Source of the DNA: Planctomycetota bacterium
GTDB taxonomy: Bacteria > Planctomycetota > Phycisphaerae > Sedimentisphaerales > Anaerobacaceae
Length of the DNA stretch: 51,790 nt
NCBI GenBank assembly: GCA_014384025.1
Contig: JACNGQ010000054.1
Coordinates: 1-51,790 of the forward strand
Reading direction: 5' to 3'
The translations under genes and the position numbers were made by a program. This document shows, one piece after another, positions 49,930 through 51,590 of this stretch. Under the pieces are notes generated by a model, which did not search any database, was not told the origin of the DNA, and worked only from the letters and a program-made list of their open reading frames with translations. Position 1 is the first letter of the stretch. Each line of letters begins with the position of its first letter.

Positions 49930-50023
49930 AATCTGAAATCTGAAAAATCTCAATCCAAAATAGTCAATAGTAAATATTAAATCGAAAGGGTTTACCCCCG
50001 AGTGCTGCTAACTTGGCCTATAA

Positions 50024-51094
50024 CAGGGGGCCGAATACGACGGCAATAACAACCTCACACGCAAATACATCCACGGTGCGCGCGTTGATGAGATGGTCTG
50101 TATGATAGACGTCGCAGATAGTAACGCCGTCTATTACTATCACTACGATGGTTCGGGCTCTGTTGTGGCCTTAAGTGATTCCTACGGCAATAGCTGCCAG
50201 AGCTACGAGTACAGCGCCTATGGCCAGGTCGCGGCCTCAGACCCCAATTTCATTGCCAATCCCTACATGTACACCGGCCGAAGGTTCGATTACGAAACAG
50301 GACTATATTACTACCGCGCCAGATACTATAATTCCTATATTGGCCGGTTCTTACAGACCGATCCGATTGGCTACGGCGATGGCATCAATTGGTATGCGTA
50401 CTGTGGGAACAATCCACTAAACTATCTGGATCCATGGGGAAATTATGATATATCTATATCAATTCCATTGAAAACCGTATGGGACAACGCTACATCTAAT
50501 GAATATTTAGCTACACATCCTGATTATTCGCATAAGATAGATGTTAATCTGTATCTTAAGGCTGCGGGTTTTTATGAGTTGTATCAAGATATTACTCTTG
50601 AAAGTGTAAGCTATAGCAATGGTCATTACGATTGCGTCTTCAAAGTTCCAGACGATGACGATAACTATAACGATATCGAAATGGATATCGTTTCAATTGA
50701 GGGCGTTTCAGTATTAAATGTCAACAACTCAGAGGGCGTAAATACGGTTATGCTTGATAAAAGATTACATGACATGATAGACACTTCTGCTACTCGTGCT
50801 ACAGCTACATCGACTAAAACTTACAAGTGGTTGATTTGGCCAGGTGTCGCTGGAGGCCTAACTGGGGCTGCGGGTGGATGGATATTAATTAAGGTTGGCG
50901 CTGCTTCATCTTGGCATCCTATTGGTGTGGGCATGGCTGTTGTAGGAGGCGTAGTGGTACTTGTCGATGGTCTTGTCTATATTTTAGCACCCCGTGGCAA
51001 TATCCCAAACTATACCGAAATCGAAGAGGCTATGAGAAGGGCAGATGAAATGGCAGAGGATATTGCTGGAGAGGATGTATATATAATCGATTAG
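50024..51094 (+). CDS. 5'-truncated RHS core with variable C-terminal (toxin-like) domain
   Basis: An orphan RHS tip. The frame is closed by TAA at 50021-50023 but is RHS-like at once (EYDGNNNLTRKYIHGARVDE), well before the first ATG at 50093. The core end is classic: YYYHYDGSGSVVALSDSYG, TGRRFDYETGLYYYRARYYN, IGRFLQTDPIGYGDGINWYA, CGNNPLNYLDPWG. After it, about 215 residues are unlike the core: a mixed soluble part, two Gly-rich membrane segments (WPGVAGGLTGAAGGWILIKV; IGVGMAVVGGVVVLVDGLVY) and an acidic tail. In RHS proteins this part is the toxin. The main core repeats are missing, and no promoter or signal is seen, so it may be silent or a recombination reserve. Confidence 0.75.
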   Translation, partial: QGAEYDGNNNLTRKYIHGARVDEMVCMIDVADSNAVYYYHYDGSGSVVALSDSYGNSCQSYEYSAYGQVAASDPNFIANPYMYTGRRFDYETGLYYYRARYYNSYIGRFLQTDPIGYGDGINWYAYCGNNPLNYLDPWGNYDISISIPLKTVWDNATSNEYLATHPDYSHKIDVNLYLKAAGFYELYQDITLESVSYSNGHYDCVFKVPDDDDNYNDIEMDIVSIEGVSVLNVNNSEGVNTVMLDKRLHDMIDTSATRATATSTKTYKWLIWPGVAGGLTGAAGGWILIKVGAASSWHPIGVGMAVVGGVVVLVDGLVYILAPRGNIPNYTEIEEAMRRADEMAEDIAGEDVYIID

Positions 51095-51196
51095 TAATGA
51101 GATATTTTATCATTTCCACTGTGATACTCTAAGGCGTATTAAAAATTGTAAATATATGACGAACGCGGACAGAGAAATACTGAAATAGCAATCATG

Positions 51197-51225
51197 TTGA
51201 CACTTAGATGGCAGTTGACTACAAT
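51197..51225 (+). promoter_or_regulatory. Promoter of the small membrane gene after the RHS tip
   Basis: TTGACA (51197-51202), a 17-bp spacer and TACAAT (51220-51225). It lies 102 bases after the RHS stop and about 70 bases before ATG 51294, so the small gene can be expressed without the RHS fragment. Confidence 0.65.
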
Positions 51226-51293
51226 TGTTAATCACAATATCTTCAGTAAATAAAATTCAAAAGGAACAATGTAGAGATAATAGAGAGGATGTC

Positions 51294-51557
51294 ATGAAAG
51301 AGCAGGACAAAAAAATGATTGGAAATATCGTTGTTATGGCTGTTTGTCTAATTATGCTTGTTTTTGGCACTTTTTGGAAGAAAATAGGGCTGGAGGGCAA
51401 AGGTATTTTCTTGATCATGTGCTCCTTGTATTTAGCAATGTGGTTACAAGCGGGAATAGTGCGCGATGATATTAAGGCAAAATTAGAGGAAATAAAAGAA
51501 GAAATAAGCAAAGGTTGTGCTGTTGAAAAATCCGCTTCGACAAATAAAGAACAATGA
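51294..51557 (+). CDS. Small two-helix membrane protein, candidate immunity protein
   Basis: An 87-residue protein with two hydrophobic helices (IGNIVVMAVCLIMLVFGTFW; GIFLIMCSLYLAMWLQAGIV) and a charged helical tail (DDIKAKLEEIKEEISKG). The start is ATG 51294, with the ribosome site GAGAGGAT; an upstream in-frame start at 51225 lies on the promoter. It follows the RHS tip directly and has its own promoter and a strong terminator. Immunity genes normally sit in this place after an RHS toxin tip, and a membrane location would suit a membrane-acting toxin. The role is inferred from position alone. Confidence 0.6.
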   Translation: MKEQDKKMIGNIVVMAVCLIMLVFGTFWKKIGLEGKGIFLIMCSLYLAMWLQAGIVRDDIKAKLEEIKEEISKGCAVEKSASTNKEQ

Positions 51558-51560
51558 AAG

Positions 51561-51590
51561 GACAGCCACTATTTCTGGTGGCTGTCTTTT
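51561..51590 (+). terminator. Intrinsic terminator after the candidate immunity gene
   Basis: A perfect 9-bp stem GACAGCCAC/GTGGCTGTC (51561-51569 and 51578-51586) with an 8-base loop is followed by TTTT. It starts four bases after the stop codon. Confidence 0.85.

Follow-up and report, generated by a model that had tools for sequence, protein, structure and literature searches.

Orphan rhs-CT/rhsI modules, which usually lack initiation signals, have been described in Salmonella and other enterobacteria (Koskiniemi et al. 2014, PMC3967940). The Salmonella orphan module combines a silent tip with an expressible immunity gene and becomes usable only once it is joined to a complete rhs gene (PMC3967940), and the exchange of toxin and immunity cassettes is a general rule for polymorphic toxins (PMC3482391). 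Among membrane-acting toxins, the RHS (rearrangement hotspot) protein Tse5 forms pores and is countered by the membrane immunity protein Tsi5 (PMC9637101), whereas the non-RHS toxin EsxX, which depolarises membranes after LXG/type VII delivery, is countered by the membrane-integrated immunity proteins ExiC and ExiD (PMC12744356). Here, we analysed a stretch of 51,790 nucleotides from a Planctomycetota bacterium (JACNGQ010000054.1; the window), which is the entire contig C379 of a 6.7 Mb assembly (GCA_014384025.1; 95% complete, 448 contigs). Close to its 3′ end, the terminal part of an RHS core runs into a tip of 215 residues, followed by a gene for an 87-residue membrane protein. We consider this locus to be, probably, an orphan rhs-CT/rhsI module. 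An initial annotation of the window had called the combination of a membrane toxin with membrane immunity little described; the Tse5/Tsi5 and EsxX systems correct this view.

The locus resembles the enterobacterial orphan modules (PMC3967940) in its truncated core, its complete tip, the linked small immunity-like gene and the joining of tips to shared cores by recombination (Table 1). An open frame without interruption (50024-51094) encodes 141 RHS core residues ending in LDPWG and then exactly 215 tip residues. Residues 63-139 match TIGR03696 (Rhs_assc_core) at 85.9 bits (cut-off 32.5), and the autoprotease signature DPIG-X19-DPWG is intact (pattern DPXG-X19-DPXG; tested as DPXG-X18/19-DPXG), with the aspartyl autoprotease motif and the spacing known from Tse5 (PMC10684867). 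Comparison with four other copies places an abrupt onset of RHS homology at 50030-50033. An in-frame TAA is located at 50021, and the earliest in-frame ATG, at 50093, is not preceded by a Shine-Dalgarno-like sequence. The full YD-repeat shell and the N-terminal delivery part are missing, i.e., the piece is an RHS fragment and not a complete RHS protein. The initial annotation of a truncated core ending in LDPWG is thereby borne out. Since dN is 0.087 and dS 0.584 between the window core and that of a same-genus cassette (L016), the core has been shaped by past purifying selection. In summary, a truncated core and a complete tip are present without initiation signals, and a small candidate immunity gene is closely linked on the same strand.

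Table 1. Features of the candidate orphan module and its flanks in the window.
Feature	Position	Strand	Basis or remark
Non-RHS sequence just 5′ of the break	49990..50029	+	Similar 40-base units intergenic in a same-genus genome (L031, 85% over 40 bases; second partial copy)
3′ remnant of RHS core, 5′-truncated, with DPXG-X19-DPXG	50030..50446	+	Profile match, homology onset, motif
First part of tip, ~106 residues, homologous to tip of same-genus orphan L016/L029	50447..50764	+	Pairwise E 4.6e-6
Variable end of tip including stop codon, candidate membrane-acting toxin part	50765..51094	+	No relatives in searches
Glycine-rich segment 1 (GVAGGLTGAAGGWILIKVG), weakly hydrophobic	50843..50899	+	19-residue hydropathy maximum 1.28
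Glycine-rich segment 2, strongly hydrophobic, probable membrane helix	50912..50989	+	Hydropathy maximum 2.36
Sigma-70-like promoter TTGACA-17-TACAAT	51197..51225	+	11/12 consensus positions
Shine-Dalgarno-like GAGAGGA ahead of the 87-residue gene	51283..51289	+	Sequence
87-residue two-helix membrane protein, immunity candidate	51294..51557	+	Open reading frame, predicted model, hydropathy
Hairpin with T-rich tail, terminator-like	51557..51590	+	15 pairs; similar hairpins elsewhere in the genus
Intergenic repeats (GGGACGCACC units), contig end	51687..51790	+	Also downstream of orphan tip L007

The passage from core to tip is marked by a sharp fall of the GC content at third codon positions (GC3), from 0.60 to 0.33. 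When the window core was aligned with three other copies, 3 of 39 third positions differed in the distal part, as opposed to 17-19 of 46 beside the tip (Fisher P 0.0004-0.0018; the three comparisons all use the window sequence and are not independent). Because these third-position differences jump while the amino acids near the tip stay almost identical (dN 0.009-0.019), the tip-proximal core has, judging by its substitutions, a history unlike that of the upstream core. Such a step in divergence is as expected if tips arrived by recombination within the core, and this recombination signature is found between a shared core and different tips. With the 5′-truncated core lacking start signals, the drop in GC3, the tip-proximal divergence and the different tips that this core carries elsewhere in the genome and the genus, the displaced polymorphic-toxin module proposed by the initial annotation is well supported.

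The closest comparison comes from a cassette in a same-genus genome (G005, L016/L029), the core of which is 82% identical to that of the window. The two cassettes are also alike in the first ~106 residues of the tip, which are homologous (0 of 500 shuffles reached the score), but they differ in the tip end and in the downstream membrane gene. The shared residues are probably a pre-toxin or linker domain; a profile search with it found nothing outside the genus among 78 RHS loci from GTDB genomes. Because the L016-type membrane gene recurs behind RHS fragments at four sites across three genomes (C428 and C87 in the genome of the window, C129 in G005 and C246 in G003), tip and membrane gene can be taken, from sequence comparison, to pair up within the genus and to be exchangeable as a pair behind a common first tip domain. 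The proteins of this L016-type family (L007:8370-8954, L029:1-540, L009:1230-1682, L021:545-868) have about 190 residues, are membrane-anchored and carry the motif ETDxQALLxACRELSRRV. No Pfam family matched them above the cut-off, and they likely constitute the immunity family for the L016-type tip. Elsewhere in G005, an open frame (L020:673-2364, also in L030) appears to join a transposase-like N-terminus, as judged by eye, in frame to an RHS core and tip; this is either a real fusion or an assembly join.

The 215-residue C-terminal domain had been described initially as one that could not be assigned, and so it has stayed: neither Pfam, NCBIfam, PHROGs nor PADLOC matched the tip above chance level. 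Relatives were found neither in GTDB contigs (searched with back-translated patterns) nor in plasmids, phages, IMG/VR or 61 relatives, and the matches in 397 genomes of the class were weak, fell mostly on the glycine-rich segment and look compositional. Sequence matches in the PDB to poxvirus F1-type proteins, with E about 0.1, were judged to be chance. The tip frame has a coding-like frame bias and is open over all 215 residues. Its variable end, which we infer to be the toxin part, possibly represents a new tip family, judging from these searches. Like Tse5/Tsi5 (PMC9637101, PMC10684867), the locus has a DPXG-X19-DPXG core end, a C-terminal tip with a hydrophobic segment and a small candidate immunity protein with two predicted membrane helices. 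Unlike in Tse5, the core is truncated and has no delivery part, and the likeness is one of layout, with no meaningful PDB sequence match for the tip. By analogy, the tip most likely works as in Tse5/Tsi5, and it is plausible that the toxin acts on the membrane and that the immunity protein is located there as well. The glycine-rich end of the tip and the putative membrane immunity are also reminiscent of EsxX; however, EsxX is not an RHS protein, and the glycine-zipper pattern of the window tip is not above chance.

The gene for the 87-residue protein is located on the same strand as the tip, 199 bases 3′ of its end, and its GC3 (0.37) is low like that of the tip. Two helices are indicated by 19-residue hydropathy maxima of 2.45 and 2.04 and by a predicted model of moderate confidence (predicted local distance difference test score, pLDDT, of 71.7). 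A promoter match of at least 11/12 positions arises within the 199-base spacer in about 1.3% of Markov shuffles. The two-helix membrane protein with its own promoter, as initially annotated, thus stands; the terminator hairpin is present, too, but because similar hairpins recur elsewhere in the genus, it may represent a local intergenic repeat and not this gene's own terminator. The protein matched no described family in Pfam, NCBIfam, PHROGs or PADLOC and had no detectable relatives, including in the 397 genomes of the class. In the sibling cassettes L007 and L016, a membrane gene is likewise situated downstream of the tip.

We propose that an RHS polymorphic-toxin gene left its 3′ end here, severed from the delivery and shell parts but with the tip still complete and with a small membrane gene that has its own promoter. 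Because there are no start signals, the tip as it stands would be silent or barely expressed; the 87-residue protein can presumably be produced and might shield the cell. If the tip came to lie behind a complete rhs gene through recombination in the common core, the core aspartyl protease would release it for delivery. Its hydrophobic end might then insert into the inner membrane of the target and depolarise it, as Tse5 does, and by analogy with Tse5/Tsi5 the two-helix protein, as a putative antidote, would block the tip at the inner membrane. The presumed toxic end past the ~106-residue linker or pre-toxin domain would be swapped together with the downstream gene.

Several results weigh against this interpretation. 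Of the two glycine-rich membrane segments that had been annotated in the tip, hydropathy upholds the second as strongly hydrophobic and finds the first weak, which leaves a single clearly hydrophobic segment. The glycine-zipper pattern is not enriched over the composition of the tip (P = 0.25), and the predicted tip structure is unusable (pLDDT 36). Because no relatives could be detected for either the variable tip end or the 87-residue protein, their pairing has no support from co-occurrence, and we infer both the pairing and the toxicity. Furthermore, the usual published setting of such modules, a full-length main rhs gene with the same core end, which is not part of the module itself, was not found in this genome, although one could be missing from an assembly that is 95% complete in 448 contigs. 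RHS_repeat (PF05593) had no match in the genome either, a model that may be insensitive here. Core-like fragments exist on four other contigs and are all short; the idea of a cassette poised for recombination with a full-length rhs gene was therefore not upheld by the genome search. Unlike in the enterobacterial orphan modules (PMC3967940), these core fragments are dispersed beside unrelated housekeeping genes. They have differing 5′ cut points and tips that are unrelated or only partly related to each other, and several of them are decayed: the C8 and C428 copies contain an identical lesion with a stop, the C87 copy has only about 37 core residues left with a stop inside, and of the C152 copy in G005 only residues 20-56 are left.

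Such broken relatives, together with the varied 5′ ends and the missing start signals in the window, would fit a decaying remnant, one among many RHS fragments in the repeat-rich intergenic regions of the genus, seen before stops arose and with no present function. The window module may indeed be on the same decay path as its siblings. However, its tip frame has remained open with a coding-like bias over 215 residues, the 87-residue gene is equipped with a good promoter, a terminator hairpin and a Shine-Dalgarno-like site, and startless orphan modules are usable after recombination (PMC3967940), which makes us regard a functionless remnant as unlikely. We are similarly doubtful that the 87-residue product is a small membrane protein unconnected with the tip, with the immunity function absent or encoded elsewhere. 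The 199-base gap, the separate promoter and the fact that co-occurrence with the tip could not be shown speak for this possibility, but the gene occupies the position of an immunity gene, shares both the low GC3 and the restricted occurrence of the tip, and a membrane gene is found at the same position in the L007 and L016 cassettes.

Very improbable, finally, is a short gene that is complete in itself, begins at ATG 50093 and encodes a membrane protein whose N-terminus derives from RHS and whose role is non-toxic. This start codon is in frame and followed by 333 open residues, but it has no ribosome-binding site, no common start is kept among the copies, whose upstream ends vary, and a core piece of 118 residues should be unable to form an RHS shell (as deduced from PMC10684867). 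An orphan rhs-CT/rhsI module thus remains the explanation that we prefer.

The layout of this module is ordinary, and its tip end and immunity candidate may be new families; more unusual is the dispersed archive, which lacks a main rhs gene. A wider reading joins these aspects: the genus would hold an archive of orphan tips beside housekeeping genes, in which tip end and immunity gene are swapped behind a shared pre-toxin domain and core pieces still recombine, and which includes new families of membrane toxins and two-helix immunity proteins. In this full form we consider it no more than tentative, and rather unlikely. If the pair is real, the membrane-acting polymorphic toxins would gain one new family of tips and one of immunity proteins, in planctomycetes, for which our literature search yielded no experimental case. 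The genus also constitutes a natural data set for tip exchange, with one core carrying different tips, a half-shared tip, and a step in synonymous divergence marking the recombination junction of core and tip.

Some further observations concern the sibling copies and the flanking repeats. Despite their unrelated tips, the C8 and C428 copies have in common a run of 111 identical bases (L006:7122-7232 and L007:7604-7714), in which about 91 bases from an intergenic repeat, including a stop, take the place of about 108 core bases; the core flanking this run is 94% and 85% identical. This pattern suggests a recent conversion or recombination between the two copies, and an assembly artefact is possible as well. 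The C8 orphan tip is followed by a gene for a DUF3160 protein (L006:8173-9189), unlike the membrane genes after other tips. A mobile unit was considered and rejected: the sole Y1 transposase match was on another contig, and the flanking motifs were ordinary intergenic repeats or too few to define ends. Integron attC sites were likewise dropped for the repeats at 49990 and 51773, which by eye did not fit the core-site consensus, and the loci that were scanned gave no Rfam match. All six genomes of the genus that were searched contain a widespread intergenic repeat with a high content of AAAACTCA (L006:7180-7226 and many other places). Repeats of GGGACGCACC units are located 3′ of two orphan tips (window:51687-51790 and L007:8957-9137), and the genome has seven exact AGGGACGCACC sites, five of which fall within these two repeat regions.
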